DNA of 64,000 nt from Cryptosporangium aurantiacum (GTDB lineage: Bacteria; Actinomycetota; Actinomycetes; Mycobacteriales; Cryptosporangiaceae). The stretch is from the NCBI RefSeq assembly GCF_900143005.1, contig NZ_FRCS01000004.1, positions 434,001 to 498,000 of the forward strand. The letters are read 5' to 3'. Shown here piece after piece: positions 20,953 through 28,197 of this stretch. The first letter of the stretch is position 1; each line of letters begins with the position of its first letter. The notes under the pieces are model-generated. The model saw nothing but the letters and a program-made list of their open reading frames with translations. It did not search any database and had not been told where the DNA came from. The translations under genes were made by a program, and so were the position numbers.

Positions 20953-23900
20953 TCACCACACGTCGACGAACGCCCTGCGGTGCTCCCCCGGCGGCGCGGA
21001 CCGCAGCACGGTGAGGATCAGCCGCCGGGTGTCGGCCGGGTCGACGACGTCGTCCAGCTCGCCGTACGTCGCGGCCGACAGGGCCTTGCCCCGCGCGTAC
21101 ATCGTCGCCACCGCGGCCTCGAACACCCGCTGACGCTCGGCCGGGTCCGCGATCGCCGCCAGCTCCTTCCGGGCGCCGAGCCGGACCGCGCCCTCGAAGC
21201 CCATCGCGCCGAGTTCGCCGGTCGGCCAGGCGACCGTGAGCAGCGGGTTGAGCAGGCTGCCGCCGGTCATCGCCTGGGCACCGAGGCCGTACGCCTTGCG
21301 CAGGACGACCGCGACCAGCGGCACGGTCAGCGCGGCGCCGACCACGAACAGCCGGCTGCAGTGCCGGACCAGCGCGGTCTTCTCGGCGTCCGGGCCGACC
21401 ATCATGCCCGGGGTATCGACGAGCGTGACCACCGGCAGCCCGTAGGCCTCGCACAGCTGGAGGAACCGGGCCGCCTTGTCGGCGCCGTCGCTGGTGATCG
21501 CCCCGGCCAGGTGCAGCGGGTTGTTCGCCAGGACGCCGACCGGCCGCCCGTCGATCCGCGCCAGCGCGGTGACCATCCCGGGCGCGAACTCGCTCCGCAG
21601 CTCGAGCACCGACCCGGTGTCGCAGAGCGTCTCTACGACCGACCGCACGTCGTAGACGCGCAGCCGGTTCTCCGGGATCAGGTGCCGCAGCAGCCGCTGG
21701 TCGGCCGCCGGTGCGCCGCCGGGCAGCGCCCCCTGGAAGTACGAGAGCGCCTGCTTGGCGGCGGCGATCGCGGCCGCGTCGTCGTCCACCAGCAGGTCGA
21801 GGACGCCGTTCGCCGCCTGCACGGCCGCCGGGCCGACGTCGTCCGGTGCCACCACGCCGAGGCCACCGCCCTCGATCATCGCCGGGCCACCCATCCCGAT
21901 CGACGCGTCGCGGGTGCCGATGACCAGGTCGGAACAGCCGGCCAGCGCCGCGTTCCCGGCGAAGCACCGGCCGGAGACGACCGCGATCCGCGGCACGACC
22001 CCCGACAGGGCAGCCCAGAGCGTGAACGCCTGGGTATCGAGCGCGGAGACCGTCTGCACGTCGACGTCGCCGGGGCGGCCACCACCACCCTCCGCGAACA
22101 GCACGGCCGGGCGCCGGAGCCGCTCGATCACCTCGAACAGCCGGTCTTTCTTCTTGTGTCCGGCGTGGCCCTGGGTGCCCGCCAGCACCGTGTAGTCGTA
22201 GCTGAGCACGGCGGCCTGGGCTCGGTCGTCGTCGAACAGGTCGCCGTTGACCCGGCCGAGCCCGGCGATCAGGCCGTCGGCGGGAGTCTTCGCGATCAGC
22301 TCGTCGAGCGGGCGGCGGGTGCGCTGAGCTGCGACGACGAGCCCGCCGTACTCGACCCAGGTACCCGGGTCGACGAGGTCGGCGAGGTTCTCCCTGGCCG
22401 TACGGCGCCCGGCCGCGTGCCGTTTCGCCACCGCGTCCGGGCGGGCGGCGTCGCGGAGCAGATCTTGCCGCCGCAGTACCTCGGCGAGGTCGGGGCGGAC
22501 GTCGTCGAGGTCGTGGTCGGCGGTCTCGTCGGCGGCGTCGGTCTCCGCGTCGCCGGGCAGCACCACGGCCACGACCGTGCCCTCGGTCACCGGATCACCG
22601 GGCGCGAGCGGCACCGCCACCACCGTGCCCGCGACCGGCGCGGCCACCACGTGCTCCATCTTCATCGCCTCGACCACCGCCAGCTCCTCGCCGGCCCGGA
22701 CGGTCTGCCCGACCGCTGCCCGGACCGCGGCGACGACGCCGCGCAGGTCGGCGGTGGCCGGGACGGTGCCGGGCTGCACGGCCGTGACGGTGTCGGCCAC
22801 CACGGCGGACGCCGCCCGCAGCACGTCCGGGTGGTCGGCGAGGAAGCCGGTGGTGACGGTTCCGGCGGCGAGCCCGTCGCGAAACGCGGGGTGCGCGACG
22901 ATCGCCGCCAGCGCGGGCAGGTTCGTCGCCACCCCGTCGAACGTGGTCTCGGCCAGCGCCCGGTCGAGCCGGCGCAGCGCACCCCGGTCGTCCGGCGCGG
23001 AGACCACGAGCTTGGCGAGCAGGCTGTCGAATCGGGCGGAGACGGTGTCGCCCGCCCGGGCGGCGGTGTCGACCCGGACGCCGAGCCCGCCGGGCAGCGT
23101 CACCGTGCTGAGCGTGCCGGTGGACGGCGTCGGGGAGCCGTCGGCGCGGTAGGTCTCGGCGTTCACCCGCACCTGGATCGCCGACCCGACCGCCGACGGG
23201 GCCGCGGCCAGCCCGACCTCGGCCAGCGTGGCCCCGGCAGCGATCCGCAGCTGGGCCGCGACCAGGTCGACGCGGTGGACCTCCTCGGTCACCGTGTGCT
23301 CGACCTGGAGTCGAGGGTTGACCTCCAGGAACACGAACGGCTCCGGGTCGCCGCTCGCCAGCCCGTCGGCGTCGACCAGGAACTCGACCGTGGCGAGCCC
23401 GCGGAACCCGACCGACCCGGTCAACCGGGCGGCCGCATCGGCCAGCGCGGACCGGACCGCGGACGGTAACGCCGGAGCCGGCGCGACCTCGACGAGCTTC
23501 TGGTGCCGCCGCTGCACCGAGCAGTCGCGGTCGCCGATCGTCACCACGGCGCCGGTGCCGTCTCCGACCACCTGTACTTCGACGTGGCGCGCGGCGGTCA
23601 GGTACTGCTCGACGTAGACGTCGTCGCGGCCGAACGCCGACCGTGCCTCGGACCGGCACCGCTCGTACGCGTCGGCCAGCCGGTCGGCGTCGCGCACCAC
23701 GCGCATACCGAGCCCGCCGCCCCCGGCGACCGCCTTGACGATGACCGCGCCGTGTTTCTCCAGCAGCTCTTGTGCCTCGGTGAGCGTCGAGGCAGCCGCG
23801 GCGACCGGGACGCCGAGTTCCGCGGCGAGCGCCCGCGCGCCGGTCTTGTCGCCGAGCCGGTCGAGGACGTCGGGCGCCGGGCCGACGAACGTCAGGCCCG

Positions 23901-24189
23901 CCGCCGCGCACGCCCGTGCGAACTCGGCGCTCTCCGACCGGAACCCGTACCCGGGGTGGACGAGCGTGCAGCCGGTGCCGACACCGGCCGCGACCAGACC
24001 CTCGATGTCGAGGTAGGCGGCCGGGCCGGCGCCGCTCAGCTCGCGCGCGTCGTCGGCGAGCCCGACGTGAGCGGCGTCCGCGTCGTCGGTGGCGTAGACG
24101 GCCGTAGTGGCCCAGCCGAGTTCGCGCGCGGCCCGGATCACCCGGACCGCGATCTCACCCCGGTTGGCGACGAGCACCCGCGTTGGCAT
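20953..24189 (-). CDS. single-chain acyl-CoA carboxylase: biotin carboxylase-BCCP-carboxyltransferase
   Basis: 1078 residues joining all three activities. Biotin carboxylase covers about 1-445 (start R-V-L-V-A-N-R-G-E-I-A, ATP-grasp G-G-G-G-L-G-M at 156-162, F-L-E-V-N-P-R-L-Q-V-E-H at 287). The biotin carrier is at about 480-545 with E-A-M-K-M and biotinylated Lys510. The carboxyltransferase, alpha and beta halves together, follows from about 570 (G-R-C-F-A-G-N-A-A-L-A-G, later K-A-Y-G-L-G-A-Q-A-M). ATP-dependent carboxylation of an acyl-CoA is expected. Actinobacterial carboxylases usually have separate AccA and AccD chains; single-chain enzymes of this order are the less common long-chain acyl-CoA carboxylase type. 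The chain preference is inferred, not seen. Confidence 0.92.
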   Translation of the reverse strand: MPTRVLVANRGEIAVRVIRAARELGWATTAVYATDDADAAHVGLADDARELSGAGPAAYLDIEGLVAAGVGTGCTLVHPGYGFRSESAEFARACAAAGLTFVGPAPDVLDRLGDKTGARALAAELGVPVAAAASTLTEAQELLEKHGAVIVKAVAGGGGLGMRVVRDADRLADAYERCRSEARSAFGRDDVYVEQYLTAARHVEVQVVGDGTGAVVTIGDRDCSVQRRHQKLVEVAPAPALPSAVRSALADAAARLTGSVGFRGLATVEFLVDADGLASGDPEPFVFLEVNPRLQVEHTVTEEVHRVDLVAAQLRIAAGATLAEVGLAAAPSAVGSAIQVRVNAETYRADGSPTPSTGTLSTVTLPGGLGVRVDTAARAGDTVSARFDSLLAKLVVSAPDDRGALRRLDRALAETTFDGVATNLPALAAIVAHPAFRDGLAAGTVTTGFLADHPDVLRAASAVVADTVTAVQPGTVPATADLRGVVAAVRAAVGQTVRAGEELAVVEAMKMEHVVAAPVAGTVVAVPLAPGDPVTEGTVVAVVLPGDAETDAADETADHDLDDVRPDLAEVLRRQDLLRDAARPDAVAKRHAAGRRTARENLADLVDPGTWVEYGGLVVAAQRTRRPLDELIAKTPADGLIAGLGRVNGDLFDDDRAQAAVLSYDYTVLAGTQGHAGHKKKDRLFEVIERLRRPAVLFAEGGGGRPGDVDVQTVSALDTQAFTLWAALSGVVPRIAVVSGRCFAGNAALAGCSDLVIGTRDASIGMGGPAMIEGGGLGVVAPDDVGPAAVQAANGVLDLLVDDDAAAIAAAKQALSYFQGALPGGAPAADQRLLRHLIPENRLRVYDVRSVVETLCDTGSVLELRSEFAPGMVTALARIDGRPVGVLANNPLHLAGAITSDGADKAARFLQLCEAYGLPVVTLVDTPGMMVGPDAEKTALVRHCSRLFVVGAALTVPLVAVVLRKAYGLGAQAMTGGSLLNPLLTVAWPTGELGAMGFEGAVRLGARKELAAIADPAERQRVFEAAVATMYARGKALSAATYGELDDVVDPADTRRLILTVLRSAPPGEHRRAFVDVW

Positions 24190-24240: not shown

Positions 24241-25017
24241 TCACCGGCGCAGCTCGCCGCGGAGCACGCTGGTGGCCGAGTGCGCCGGATCGCCGTCGAA
24301 CGTCTCCGCGGAGATGTCGATGCCACGCCAGCCCGCCGGGTCCAGGCCCGGCGGCACCGGGAACCGCACCACCTCACCTGGCCGGACTGCCCCCATCGCC
24401 TGCATCCGGACGGTTCCCGGCACGAACATCCACGCCTCGTAGAAGCCGTCGGTCAGCGGCAGGTCGCGCACGTCGATCTCGAGTGCGAGGCGGTCGCCGG
24501 TGCGGATCAGCCGGGCGTCGCCGGTGCTGCCCCTGCCCTCGTTGCCGACCGGGGCCAGCGCTGTCGACGCGACCACGGTGCTCGCGGGGGCATCCGGGCG
24601 GCGGACCTCCTGCCAGCCCAGGGTCGCCCCCACGCCGAGCACGACGCCGAGCACGCACGCCGCGGCGGCGGTAAGGATCCGCCGACCACGCCCCGCCCGA
24701 CGGCCTCCGACCACCGCGTGTCCACCGGCATCGCGTCCGCCGTGGGACAGCGGGACCACCTCGGCGGCGCGCGGGCTCTCGGACCGGACCTCGGCCTCGA
24801 TCGCGTCCCAGACGCGCGGCGGAGGCGGCGGAGGCTGCAGGTCGTCCGCGTCGGCCTCCCGGCCAAGCCCGACGACGTGCCGTAGCGCCGCGTACTCCCG
24901 GCCGCAGATCGGGCACTCCGCGAGGTGGGCCCGCGCCCACTGCTCCTCGGCATCGGCCGGCGGCGTCTCCTCGTCGAGCGCCAGCAGGGTCAGTCGTTCA
25001 GGGTCGACGTGCCGCAT
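24241..25017 (-). CDS. anti-sigma factor, RskA-like with zinc-finger motif
   Basis: 258 residues. The cytoplasmic N-terminus has A-H-L-A-E-C-P-I-C-G, the H-x3-C-x2-C zinc-binding motif of ZAS anti-sigma domains (about 31-38). One membrane helix follows at about 114-135 (A-A-A-A-C-V-L-G-V-V-L-G-V-G), then an extracytoplasmic RskA-type domain (D-G-F-Y-E-A-W-M-F-V-P-G near 190). It should hold the sigma factor inactive at the membrane and be removed by proteolysis. It overlaps the sigma gene by 20 bp. The M50-type protease gene 2-3 kb upstream could take part in that proteolysis, but this is conjecture. Confidence 0.88.
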   Translation of the reverse strand: MRHVDPERLTLLALDEETPPADAEEQWARAHLAECPICGREYAALRHVVGLGREADADDLQPPPPPPRVWDAIEAEVRSESPRAAEVVPLSHGGRDAGGHAVVGGRRAGRGRRILTAAAACVLGVVLGVGATLGWQEVRRPDAPASTVVASTALAPVGNEGRGSTGDARLIRTGDRLALEIDVRDLPLTDGFYEAWMFVPGTVRMQAMGAVRPGEVVRFPVPPGLDPAGWRGIDISAETFDGDPAHSATSVLRGELRR

Positions 25018-25624
25018 GGTCCACCTCCTCCCACGAGCGACGTAACTGGCTGAGGCCGCGGCGCAAGTGTGATTTCACCGTGCCGAGCGGTAGGCCGGTC
25101 AAGCCGGCGATCTGGGTGTGCGTGAGATCGTCGAAGAATGCCAGTTGGACGACCCGGCGTTGCTCCGGGCTGAGCTGGGCGAGCCGGTCGGCCACCACCA
25201 GCCGGTCCAGCACGCGTTCCGGACCGGGATGCGCAGGCACCGGCTCGGCTGCCTCGACGACTCGCGCCACCCGTTCCTCACGCTGCAGAGCGCGGAGTCG
25301 GTCGATCATCTGACGCTTGGCGATGCCGATCAGCCAGGCTGCCAGCCGTCCCCGCTCCGGGTCGAACGTCGCCCGCCCGCGCCAGGCCGCGACGAACGTC
25401 GCCTGAGTGAGGTCCTCCGCGTCGCTCGGGCTGGGCAGCGTCTGCCTACCGAGGCGGTAGACGAGGCCGCCCCACCGGTCGTACATCGCGCGCAGGACGC
25501 TCTCGTCGCCTGCCGCGAATCGGGCGGCGAGTAGGTCGTCGCTGTCCACGGACTCCGGCGGCCAGCCGCCGGTCGTGTCCGGTGATCGGCCGGCTTGTGA
25601 ACCGGCGTCTCCGCCTGGGGTCAT
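24998..25624 (-). CDS. ECF sigma factor (SigK-like)
   Basis: 208 residues. Region 2 includes D-L-T-Q-A-T-F-V-A-A-W and W-L-I-G-I-A-K-R-Q-M-I-D-R-L-R; region 4 includes L-S-P-E-Q-R-R-V-V-Q-L-A-F-F and the helix-turn-helix T-H-T-Q-I-A-G-L-T-G-L-P-L-G-T-V-K-S. No C-terminal extension is present. The ATG at 25624 overlaps the sortase stop (ATGA), and its own end overlaps the anti-sigma start, so sigma, anti-sigma and the sortase are made together. Pairing with an RskA-type anti-sigma suggests the SigK/ECF19-like group. Confidence 0.9.
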   Translation of the reverse strand: MTPGGDAGSQAGRSPDTTGGWPPESVDSDDLLAARFAAGDESVLRAMYDRWGGLVYRLGRQTLPSPSDAEDLTQATFVAAWRGRATFDPERGRLAAWLIGIAKRQMIDRLRALQREERVARVVEAAEPVPAHPGPERVLDRLVVADRLAQLSPEQRRVVQLAFFDDLTHTQIAGLTGLPLGTVKSHLRRGLSQLRRSWEEVDHAARRP

Positions 25625-26268
25625 GGGCCGGCCTCCTCGACGGCGGTGACCACGATGTTGTCGCGGTAGGAACGGGTGGCACTGTCGAACGATCCGCCGC
25701 AGGTGACGAGCGTCAGACGAGGCTCGCCCTCCCGGCTGAACAGGCGGTCGAGCGGTACCGCGGACTTGTCGAACACCTCGCGGGCGACGAGGCGGTACTG
25801 ACGGTCCGTGCCATCGGTACCGGTGATCGTCAGTCGATCGCCGATGCCGAGGTTCCGCAACTCGAAGAACGCCCCCTCGCCCTGATCGGCGTCGTCGACG
25901 TGCCCCGCGATCACCGTTGATCCCGCCCGCGCGTCGAGGGCGGGTCCGTAGCGGTACCAACCCACCCGGTCGACCGCGCGCGGGACCTCCATCTCCCCGG
26001 TGTCCGGTTCGACGCCGACCGGCAGGACGACGGCGTCGACGCCGATGTCGGGGATGCGGAGCCGCTGCGGAGCGACCGGAACACGCCCCGGATCGGGCCC
26101 CCGGGTCGGCGCGTCGGTGCTCCGGGTCGGCGCCGCGAGCTGCTCGGCGGACGCGGCGCCCACCGTGGTGGGCGGCTCGGCCGGTCGCCGCGCCACCACG
26201 ATCGTGGTCACCGCGACGAGCACCAGGAGGACACCGACGCCGAACGCGACGGCCGTGGAACGGCGCAT
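25621..26268 (-). CDS. sortase family enzyme (class E/F)
   Basis: 215 residues with one N-terminal membrane helix (about 5-27), a Pro/Thr-rich linker, and a sortase beta-barrel from about 65. Catalytic residues are His123 (A-G-H-V-D), Cys190 (T-L-V-T-C-G-G) and Arg202 (S-Y-R-D-N). Sortases cleave a sorting signal and attach surface proteins to the envelope. The T-L-V-T-C-G-G motif and small size fit actinobacterial class F or E. Its probable substrate is the adjacent DUF4397 protein, although that protein lacks an obvious L-P-x-T-G. It is coupled to the sigma factor gene by a 4-bp overlap. Confidence 0.9.
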   Translation of the reverse strand: MRRSTAVAFGVGVLLVLVAVTTIVVARRPAEPPTTVGAASAEQLAAPTRSTDAPTRGPDPGRVPVAPQRLRIPDIGVDAVVLPVGVEPDTGEMEVPRAVDRVGWYRYGPALDARAGSTVIAGHVDDADQGEGAFFELRNLGIGDRLTITGTDGTDRQYRLVAREVFDKSAVPLDRLFSREGEPRLTLVTCGGSFDSATRSYRDNIVVTAVEEAGP

Positions 26269-26289
26269 ACCGATCGCTCCGCAGCCCGG

Positions 26290-27117
26290 TCAGCGGCGCG
26301 CGGTGGCGAGCTTGGCGCCGGCCGCGGTCAGCACGAGCAGTCCGAGCGCACCGGTCACCAGCGCGTACGGCGGCACGCCGGCTCCGCTACCCCGTTCTCC
26401 GCTACCCAGCCCGGCGGGCACCGCCGACGGGTTGGAGTGCAGCCCGTCGATGGTCTGCGCGACGACGGCGAGCGTCTTGTCGGTCGCCGAGCCGATCGCG
26501 TACACGACCGTGGCCGTGCCTTCCTTCAGCTCGACGTCGGCCGGCCCGATCACCGGCTGGCTCTGACCGGCGAGGACGACGTCCGCGCTCACCGTGCCTG
26601 CCGGCAGGTCGGCCTTGGCCTCGTTCGGGTTGGTCAGCCCGGAGAACGCGACCTTCTGGTTCGCGCGCACGTCGACGGCGGGCGCGGCGGCGGTGTGCCG
26701 GACGATCAGCCGTGCCTGCCCGGCAGCGACCTTCGAGACGTCGTTGACGAACGGCGTCAGCGTCGGTTTGCCGGATGCGTCGAGATGGGCGACGACGCTG
26801 ACGTTCGCGCCGGCCGGCACATCGACGTCGTTCGCCTCGACGACGGCCGCCGCGTTGCCGTCCGGCGCGTCACCGGCGACGACCTTCAGGTCGTACGCGC
26901 CGGCCGGGAGTGACAGCGGCCCGGCGACGGTGCTGGGCGCGAAGTTGTCGAGCGTGCGCTTGCCGTTGACGTAGACATCCACGGTCGCGCCGGGGATTCC
27001 GTGCACCACGGAAACCTGGGCGGGGTCGGCCGCGGAAGCGGGCGCGGACAGGCCGATGCCGATCAGCGTCAGGGTGGCAGCGGCTGCGGCCGCCGCGGCG
27101 GCGCGGGAGCGAGACAT
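26290..27117 (-). CDS. DUF4397 surface protein with C-terminal membrane anchor
   Basis: 275 residues. A Sec signal peptide (cleavage near A-P-A-S-A-A-D, about residue 30) is followed by two DUF4397-type beta domains (V-S-V-V-H-G-I-P-G-A-T-V-D-V-Y-V and R-L-I-V-R-H-T-A-A-A-P-A-V-D-V). A flexible Gly/Ser segment, a hydrophobic stretch (A-L-V-T-G-A-L-G-L-L-V-L) and a basic tail A-T-A-R-R end the protein. That tail has the layout of a sortase signal without L-P-x-T-G. It lies 21 bp upstream of the sortase gene and leads the operon. DUF4397 proteins are exported; their role is not known. Confidence 0.88.
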   Translation of the reverse strand: MSRSRAAAAAAAAATLTLIGIGLSAPASAADPAQVSVVHGIPGATVDVYVNGKRTLDNFAPSTVAGPLSLPAGAYDLKVVAGDAPDGNAAAVVEANDVDVPAGANVSVVAHLDASGKPTLTPFVNDVSKVAAGQARLIVRHTAAAPAVDVRANQKVAFSGLTNPNEAKADLPAGTVSADVVLAGQSQPVIGPADVELKEGTATVVYAIGSATDKTLAVVAQTIDGLHSNPSAVPAGLGSGERGSGAGVPPYALVTGALGLLVLTAAGAKLATARR

Positions 27118-27183
27118 GCGGGTCCTCCTCGGGACGTTCCGGTCGCGCGGACGAGTGGGGCGCTCGGCCCGTACTCGACTGCT

Positions 27184-27212
27184 TCTACGACCGGCACCCG
27201 CCGGACGGATGC
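27184..27212 (-). promoter_or_regulatory. possible SigK-type promoter of the DUF4397-sortase-sigma operon
   Basis: On the minus strand GCATCC (27212-27207) is followed after 17 bases by CGTAGA (27189-27184), about 67 bp before the DUF4397 start. The first element resembles the CCATCC -35 of mycobacterial SigK; the second departs from CCGAAT. It is a weak candidate for autoregulation by the sigma factor of the same operon. Confidence 0.25.
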
Positions 27213-27225
27213 ACCCGTCGGAAGT

Positions 27226-28002
27226 TCACGCCACCAGCAGCAGCCACCCGCCGAACACGAGGGCCGCCCAGCACAGGACGAGGTGCAGCAGAGCCCAGAT
27301 GATCTGCGGCACGTACGTCATCTCGCGCAGGATGAGGTGATCCGACTTCGACTTCGCCTTGGGATCGATCTTCCGCGCCGACCGGCTCAACAGCGGTCGC
27401 ACCTGGGGCGCGCCGATCAGCAGCAGCGACCAGACCAGCAGGTAGGCGACGAGCGTCTGCACGGCCACCGGCGTCGTCCACGCCACGAACAGCAGCGGCC
27501 CGCCGAGCAGCAGCACGATCATCACGCCGTAGAAATTCTGCATCAGCCACAGCAGCCCGACGAACAGCACGATCGCCAGCCAGAGCACCGCCACCGGGTG
27601 ATCGCGGGAGAGCAGCCAGGCACCCAGCAACCCGAGGAGCGGCGGCCCCGCGTACCCGGCGAACGTGGTGACGAAGTCGGAGAAGCCCTTGACCACGACC
27701 TTCGTCGCCGGGTTGCCCCGACGCGGGATCGTCACGCCCTTCACTTCGCCGAGCAGGCCGGCGAAGAACGCGTGCGAGCCCTCGTGGCCGGAGTGCCCCA
27801 ACCGCGCCATCGCGGCGGTACCGACGAAGAGCAGCGCGGTGAAGCCGGTCAGAAGCACGAGCCAGACCGGGGCCGACGGCTGGCGCGCCGCGATCTGTTC
27901 GGTGATCTCCCCGATCCGGCCGGACGTCGTCGAGTTCGGCGACGGCGTCGGTACCGGTGTCGGCGCCAGCAGGACGGATAACGGCAGCAGGCCAGCTGTC
28001 AT
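27226..28002 (-). CDS. M50B-type membrane metalloprotease
   Basis: 258 residues from the ATG at 28002 (GGGGGGC upstream). The H-E-x-x-H zinc motif is His73-Glu74-Gly-Ser-His77, followed by A-F-F-A-G-L-L-G. Hydrophobic segments lie at about 45-65, 110-135, 140-180 and 185-200, with a last one at the C-terminus, giving an intramembrane active site like that of site-2 proteases. The second conserved block (F-A-G-Y-A-G-P-P-L-L-G-L-L-G) matches the PF13398 type. Such enzymes can cut transmembrane anti-sigma factors, and an anti-sigma gene lies 2-3 kb downstream on the same strand; no direct link is shown. Confidence 0.82.
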   Translation of the reverse strand: MTAGLLPLSVLLAPTPVPTPSPNSTTSGRIGEITEQIAARQPSAPVWLVLLTGFTALLFVGTAAMARLGHSGHEGSHAFFAGLLGEVKGVTIPRRGNPATKVVVKGFSDFVTTFAGYAGPPLLGLLGAWLLSRDHPVAVLWLAIVLFVGLLWLMQNFYGVMIVLLLGGPLLFVAWTTPVAVQTLVAYLLVWSLLLIGAPQVRPLLSRSARKIDPKAKSKSDHLILREMTYVPQIIWALLHLVLCWAALVFGGWLLLVA

Positions 28003-28085: not shown

Positions 28086-28197
28086 GCCGAGGTTCGCATC
28101 GCTCGCCTCGATGAGCGACCACCGAACGACCCTCATGACTACCCGAGTTCACGGCGTTACTCAGAGTTGCGACACTGAACGGGACCTAGGGGGATGG

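Follow-up and report, generated by a model that had tools for sequence, protein, structure and literature searches.

We found that a gene cluster at positions 24241 to 28002 of a 64,000-nucleotide stretch of the Cryptosporangium aurantiacum genome (contig NZ_FRCS01000004.1, positions 434,001 to 498,000; this whole stretch is called the window here) likely encodes a self-contained surface-display cassette, in which a dedicated extracytoplasmic function (ECF) sigma factor co-expresses a DUF4397 surface protein with its own sortase. Comparison with related loci revealed linkage of these genes, a promoter-like site ahead of them, an association between a short motif, a C-terminal helix, and the sortase gene, exclusion of a neighboring M50B-like protease gene, and exchange of DUF4397 for a fasciclin protein in congeners. 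We also favor, somewhat less firmly, a more specific proposal. According to this proposal, V-[PE]-[TASG]-G before the C-terminal helix is the sorting signal of class F-like sortases encoded next to DUF4397, and substrate and sortase form a dedicated pair under a near-private ECF sigma factor with interchangeable cargo (DUF4397 plus sortase, DUF4397 plus LPxTG, or fasciclin).

All of the genes are on the minus strand and are read in the order M50B-like protease, DUF4397, sortase, ECF sigma factor, and anti-sigma factor. The features are as follows.

26290 to 27117, minus strand: DUF4397 surface protein, 275 amino acids (PF14344, 111.4 bits)
26410 to 26421, minus strand: candidate sorting signal V-P-A-G, DUF4397 residues 233 to 236, within HSNPSAVPAGLGSG (alignment with relatives)
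26296 to 26370, minus strand: predicted DUF4397 C-terminal helix, residues 250 to 274 (AlphaFold2 model)
25621 to 26268, minus strand: membrane-anchored class F-like sortase with catalytic His and Cys (PF04203, 69.9 bits)
24998 to 25624, minus strand: ECF sigma factor with regions 2 and 4, 208 amino acids, without cysteine (Pfam Sigma70_r2 and r4_2)
24241 to 25017, minus strand: anti-sigma factor with an HxxxCxxC cytoplasmic domain, one membrane helix, and an extracytoplasmic RskA_C domain (PF10099, 42.2 bits)
27186 to 27212, minus strand: candidate promoter of the cassette sigma factor, GCATCC-N17-CGTA (pattern kept before DUF4397 in relatives)
27226 to 28002, minus strand: M50B-like membrane protease with HEGSH (PF13398), a neighbor judged to lie outside the module

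The sortase and sigma genes overlap by 4 bp (ATGA), and the sigma and anti-sigma genes overlap by 20 bp. The initial annotation of this region had described a single operon with overlaps of 4 to 20 bp; this holds for these two junctions and fails between DUF4397 and the sortase gene, which are separated by a 21-bp gap. The sigma factor, with regions 2 and 4, adjoins an anti-sigma factor with an RskA_C domain, which identifies the two as an ECF sigma/RskA-type pair. We took the membrane helix and topology of the anti-sigma factor from a reading of its sequence and not from a prediction tool. HxxxCxxC is present in the window protein and in 62 of 65 homologues.

We compared DUF4397 loci in three sets, in which the module genes were scored with our own profiles, built from the window proteins and their relatives. 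The named set consists of the best 80 of at least 454 confirmed DUF4397 relatives and is biased toward the window's type. The order set consists of 34 DUF4397 stretches from relatives; PF14344 occurred in 24 of 61 relatives' genomes, counting the window genome. The phylum set consists of 40 stretches from a phylum-wide draw, in which 38 of 296 genomes carried DUF4397, and leaves out 11 weaker DUF4397 places. All four genes were found within the flanks in 65 of 80 named loci, and a sortase was found in 77. In the order set, 15 of 34 loci had all four genes and 32 had a sortase. The corresponding counts in the phylum set were 7 of 40 and 16 of 40, with a sigma and an anti-sigma homologue in 13 of 40. 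Among the 37 genus labels of the named set, 32 had at least one four-gene locus. We found no fifth conserved gene in 37 representative neighborhoods, where the next cluster outside the module reached 6 loci. The largest cluster in this comparison (37 loci, 96 unannotated frames) contained 86 frames that mostly overlap module genes in other reading frames; the other 10, in 8 loci, do not overlap them. From the counts in the three sets, we concluded that the DUF4397-sortase-sigma-anti-sigma set recurs too widely for chance. The self-contained module described in the initial annotation is borne out by these counts, and the co-occurrence that it suggested surveying extends beyond the window genome. 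One locus, L140 from Cryobacterium shii, carries a decayed module, in which a stop codon interrupts the sortase and the RskA_C-like end that comes after it is in a different frame.

The sortase scored 69.9 bits against PF04203 (cut-off, 26.6), which places it in this domain family, and the catalytic His and Cys columns are conserved in 78 of 78 sortases. The DUF4397 protein has an N-terminal hydrophobic signal segment, two beta domains (residues 33 to 223), a low-confidence stalk, and a C-terminal helix. In an AlphaFold2 model with a mean pLDDT (predicted local distance difference test) of 85.9, the candidate motif lies in the low-confidence stalk between the beta domains and the helix. The best matches of this model in the PDB were the tandem extracellular domains of PepT1/PepT2 (5a9i; template modeling score, 0.68 by target length; E value, 6e-7), followed by weaker matches to Bacteroides adhesin-like proteins. 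These matches point to a tandem beta-sandwich and do not reveal a function. When the PDB was searched by sequence, the sortase had no match and DUF4397 had no usable one (best E value, 0.023).

The window DUF4397 protein contains no LPxTG, and it has the helix and a basic end. It thus has the layout that had been read from it before, that of a sortase substrate with a hydrophobic segment and a basic tail in which L-P-x-T-G is missing. A motif ahead of the C-terminal helix, which the initial annotation had suggested looking for, was also present in the relatives. Sortase-linked DUF4397 tails carry V-[PE]-x-G-like sequences just ahead of the helix, such as HSAPGGVPSGTGG or GGVETGAGGTA. We defined a short motif, [VIM][PEDQAR][STAGN]G accompanied by the helix, and found it in 118 of 125 sortase-linked DUF4397 proteins (75 of 77 named, 30 of 32 order, and 13 of 16 phylum); this count leaves out one DUF4397 protein cut at a 3' contig edge. 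The phylum misses are L159, which reads VSTG, L169, which reads VNTG, and L150, a fusion. In contrast, none of the 24 sortase-less DUF4397 proteins of the phylum set had the short motif together with the helix: 17 lacked the helix, 2 had the helix only, and 5 had an LPxTG-type motif and the helix. Three of the five (L173, L175, and L177) adjoin a sigma pair, which is divergent in each case.

The window DUF4397 protein shares a signal segment, a C-terminal motif, a helix, and a basic end with LPxTG wall proteins. DUF4397 relatives L173 and L175 to L178 bear [LMI]PDTG at the place of the motif, whereas the window protein and its sortase-linked relatives carry the V-[PE]-x-G-like motifs. By analogy with LPxT|G, the cut would fall between the third and fourth motif residues.

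Several other loci bear on how DUF4397 and sortases are arranged. In L066 (6001 to 7644) and L150 (1454 to 3301), a single continuous frame runs from DUF4397 through a motif-like stretch and a hydrophobic segment into a sortase; these could be real fusions or assembly effects. The window genome has a second sortase that matches the class F-like profile (L069, 7106 to 8607; G000:C5). Ahead of it is the gene for a DUF4142 protein that contains QVDGGRG, a hydrophobic segment, and RRR; this may be a pairing of the same kind, with a different substrate. The DUF4397 proteins of L155 and L152, which have no sortase beside them and no V-motif, end in a repeat-like region that may consist of cell-wall-binding repeats; L155 keeps the sigma pair and the GCATCC promoter.

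We found GCATCC-N16/17-CG[ATG]A upstream of DUF4397 genes. In the window, the site begins 13 bp past the M50B stop codon and lies 68 bp from the DUF4397 start codon. The hexamer GCATC[CT] was scored in the 71 named loci with an assignable start (the other 9 were left out), and 58 of them had it in the 250 bp upstream, compared with 376 of 3550 random segments. We then scored the full pattern, GCATC[CT]-N15-18-CGNA within 250 bp ahead of the DUF4397 domain, leaving out one phylum locus whose upstream sequence was too short. It was present in 63 of 87 four-gene loci (50 of 65 named, 10 of 15 order, and 3 of 7 phylum) versus 85 of 6160 random segments, and in 25 of the 37 genus labels. Among loci with a sortase and no complete sigma pair, none of the 17 in the order set had the pattern. 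Without a sortase, it was found in 1 of 3 named loci, in 0 of 2 order loci, and, in the phylum set, in 1 of 6 loci with a sigma pair and 0 of 18 without. The pattern also stood ahead of the sigma gene in 26 of 31 loci with a divergent sigma gene versus 0 of 35 with a co-directional one. The pattern is ahead of sigma only when sigma is divergent; thus, it tracks the transcription unit, as autoregulation predicts. The consensus for Mycobacterium tuberculosis SigK is CCATCC-N17-CCGAAT, which we could not confirm. We infer from these distributions that the cassette sigma factor uses a GCATCC-N17-CGTA promoter.

The sigma pair is not restricted to DUF4397. Congeners G001 and G002 have an orthologous anti-sigma factor (72% identity in G001 and 82% over residues 110 to 258 in G002). 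We found no DUF4397 match in either genome, and both the sortase and DUF4397 are absent at their sigma-pair locus. In both, a fasciclin protein with a signal segment adjoins the orthologous pair. In G002 the order is fasciclin, sigma, and anti-sigma, all co-directional, with the promoter before fasciclin; G001 has separate promoters for sigma and for fasciclin. A third congener, G003, has the DUF4397 module; at another place in its genome, away from any sigma gene, a fasciclin gene carries the same promoter. The outer domain of the anti-sigma factor is 85% identical to that of the window in G003, which has the same cargo, and 80 to 82% identical in G001 and G002, which have fasciclin cargo, while identity of the cytoplasmic portion drops from 84% to 64% across the same comparison. 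Since the outer domain is similarly conserved across cargoes, the sensor does not seem to change with cargo, and these alignments of four species are suggestive of an anti-sigma sensor that is independent of cargo. As a possible reference for the promoter, we also examined 16 fasciclin stretches from relatives (L265 to L280), but did not adopt them for this use. The same kind of fasciclin occurred in three (L265 to L267), the promoter in L265, and a sigma homologue over threshold in two (L274, weak, and L279).

MPT83 of mycobacteria is a fasciclin-domain protein. The mpt83-sigK-rskA cassette combines a surface-protein gene, an ECF sigma factor, an RskA-type anti-sigma factor, and a sigma site, as the window cassette does, and its layout is matched by the fasciclin gene and orthologous sigma pair of G001 and G002 (as the cassette is outlined in PMC7509140). 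The window cassette differs in that its cargo is DUF4397 with a sortase-type tail and not the lipid-anchored MPT83, a sortase gene is added, and the sigma factor is cysteine free. By the figures given in PMC7509140, 94% of ECF18 members and 56% of ECF19 members keep the two cysteines of SigK. The window sigma factor has no cysteine and so lacks this pair, and it scored 112.4 bits against the NCBIfam SigK model NF007228, under the cut-off of 226. The N terminus of its anti-sigma factor, HVDPERLTLLALDE...ADAEEQWARAHL, resembles the motifs HLDPDQLALLA and GEPLDADERAHL of AS19-2, the ECF19 partner, as these are set out in PMC7406223; this likeness was judged by eye, with no group model. We class the window cassette with the SigK-RskA surface-protein cassettes, as a previously undescribed form that adds its own sortase and a candidate anchoring signal other than LPxTG.

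The gene just upstream on the same strand encodes an M50B-like protease that scored 104.4 bits against PF13398 (cut-off, 26). We chose its start at 28002; the listed frame opens at 28152. The initial annotation had set it beside the module and pointed out that proteases of this class cut anti-sigma factors in regulated proteolysis. The gene does lie there, 108 bp from DUF4397, and its membership in the module did not stand. The M50B profile matched none of the 80 named loci and 1 of 34 order-set stretches, that of G003. This profile was built from few sequences near that of the window, and it still matched distant main copies at an E value of about 1e-27. PF13398 is present in 51 of 61 genomes, and it is next to DUF4397 in just 2 of the 24 DUF4397-bearing genomes, the window genome and G003. 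In G002, the block ligase-TIM-SDR-Rieske-M50B-DUF732 is intact (L197) without the module. Neither the module nor the gene on its other side, a 1078-amino-acid biotin carboxylase/carboxyltransferase gene that adjoins it at 20953 to 24189 of the window, had a match within this otherwise conserved block. The absence from the named loci and the synteny in G002 rule out M50B as a module member; on this comparative evidence, it is a chance neighbor.

The M50B neighbor shares the HExxH M50-type zinc motif with the Rip1/RseP site-2 proteases. It differs from them in that it matched PF13398 alone, with no PDZ match. The window genome encodes a PDZ-containing PF02163 site-2 protease of the Rip1/RseP kind at another place (G000:C1:411901). 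In this genome, it lies about 2 to 3 kb from a fasciclin gene (415232); rip1 and mpt83/mpt70 are likewise near each other in mycobacteria.

A number of observations weigh against the surface-display cassette and have to be set beside the evidence above. The locus sets partly overlap and include many close relatives; L042 and L076 are probably one locus. The best NCBIfam model for the sortase, class F (NF033748), gave 123.2 bits, under the cut-off of 166, and we therefore call it class F-like only. The column of the window's YRDN arginine holds Arg in just 50 of 78 sortases. The short motif is permissive, since 9 of the 24 sortase-less phylum proteins have it in a tail without a helix. The longer form [VIM]x[STAGN]Gx[GSA][GA] is found in 103 of 125 sortase-linked proteins (63 of 77 named, 26 of 32 order, and 14 of 16 phylum) versus 1 of 24 sortase-less proteins, and the window protein, with VPAGLGSG, matches the short form and not this one. 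At the level of these alignments, the permissiveness of the short form weakens the motif argument and the longer form restores it. In addition, 4 of 5 sortase-less proteins in the named and order sets still have the motif and helix; contig ends cut into L126 and L057, the decayed locus described above accounts for L140, and L064 is a true exception. The promoter pattern was not detected in 24 of 87 four-gene loci, was not found at the LPxTG-type loci L173, L175, and L177, and, among loci with a sortase and no complete sigma pair, was present in 5 of 12 in the named set and 1 of 8 in the phylum set. The exact form GCATCCN17CGTAG gave 9 matches in four congener genomes, no more than a reversed control (8), so that their locations alone are telling: 6 fall at genes for DUF4397, sigma, or fasciclin, and 3, one each in three genomes, are at unrelated-looking places. 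Finally, Actinoplanes missouriensis from which all four of its class F sortases had been deleted showed no phenotype in the conditions used in that study (as stated in PMC13251363), which speaks against an important role.

We weighed three other explanations against this evidence. The DUF4397 protein may not be sortase anchored at all and may stay held in the membrane, while the sortase serves other substrates or partners with DUF4397. The lack of LPxTG, the fused frames of L066 and L150, the unconserved arginine column, and the permissiveness of the short motif by itself are all compatible with this. However, the motif and helix track the sortase gene, and the sortase-free phylum relatives have LPxTG, no helix, or a helix only. 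The two fusions also retain a motif-like stretch (VQTG and LRTG) and a hydrophobic segment. We consider this explanation unlikely. It is also quite unlikely, in our judgment, that the sigma factor is a broad envelope-stress regulator for which the operon is merely one regulon member. The unlinked fasciclin gene of G003 with the same promoter would fit such a role, as would the excess of the loose promoter pattern in the window genome (55 matches versus 25 in the control; the strict pattern gave 2 versus 1). Against it, the exact pattern had 9 matches in the four genomes, versus 8 for its control, and its three matches outside the cassette and fasciclin genes were scattered and had no common feature, although degenerate sites were not sought for such a wider regulon.

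The explanation that we consider least probable, and very improbable, is the sensing circuit put forward in the initial annotation. In this circuit, the anti-sigma factor responds to the activity of the sortase or to DUF4397 that is not anchored, and sigma is freed by the neighboring M50 protease, such that the state of sortase and substrate feeds back on sigma release. The tight gene linkage and translational overlap are what such a circuit would lead one to expect, and DUF4397 accompanies a sigma pair without a sortase in 6 of 40 phylum stretches (among them L181, with weak matches). The M50B gene does not travel with the module, as described above. Moreover, G001 and G002 retain the pair at a locus that lacks both DUF4397 and the sortase, and the outer domain of the anti-sigma factor is little changed there. 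A DUF4397-sortase pair also has no linked sigma pair in 17 of the 34 stretches of the order set and in 9 of the 40 of the phylum set. This evidence speaks both against the feedback and against the place given in it to the M50 protease.

We therefore return to the surface-display cassette, for which we propose the following mechanism. The anti-sigma factor would keep the ECF sigma factor at the membrane until its RskA_C domain reads an extracytoplasmic signal, upon which sigma would be released. Release would probably occur by proteolysis via the genome-wide site-2 protease, not the adjacent M50B. The freed sigma factor would transcribe its own operon (DUF4397, sortase, sigma, and anti-sigma) from GCATCC-N17-CGTA. 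DUF4397 would then be exported and retained by its C-terminal helix, and the sortase would cut at V-P-A|G (V-[PE]-[TASG]-G in relatives) and join DUF4397 covalently to the cell wall.

In the literature that we searched, no paper joined DUF4397 with a sortase; an entry in the context tables of the ECF reclassification is possible. In the statements of PMC13251363 on these enzymes, the physiological roles of class F sortases are unknown. The same source notes that srtF1 and srtF4 of A. missouriensis, two of the four genes SrtF1 to SrtF4, adjoin genes for tailed proteins that lack a known motif and suggests these as possible substrates. They share a signal peptide, a membrane region, a basic tail, and the lack of a known sorting motif with the window DUF4397 protein. 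The DUF4397 identity, the new motif, and the linked sigma pair are not reported in the sections of PMC13251363 that deal with these genes.

In that study, as far as its account of them goes, the tailed proteins beside two class F sortases were set aside for want of a known motif (PMC13251363). The motif and promoter described here make the substrate and the inducing circuit directly testable. One sigma system that is paired with different surface proteins within one genus would also offer a clean setting for finding out what RskA-type sensors read.

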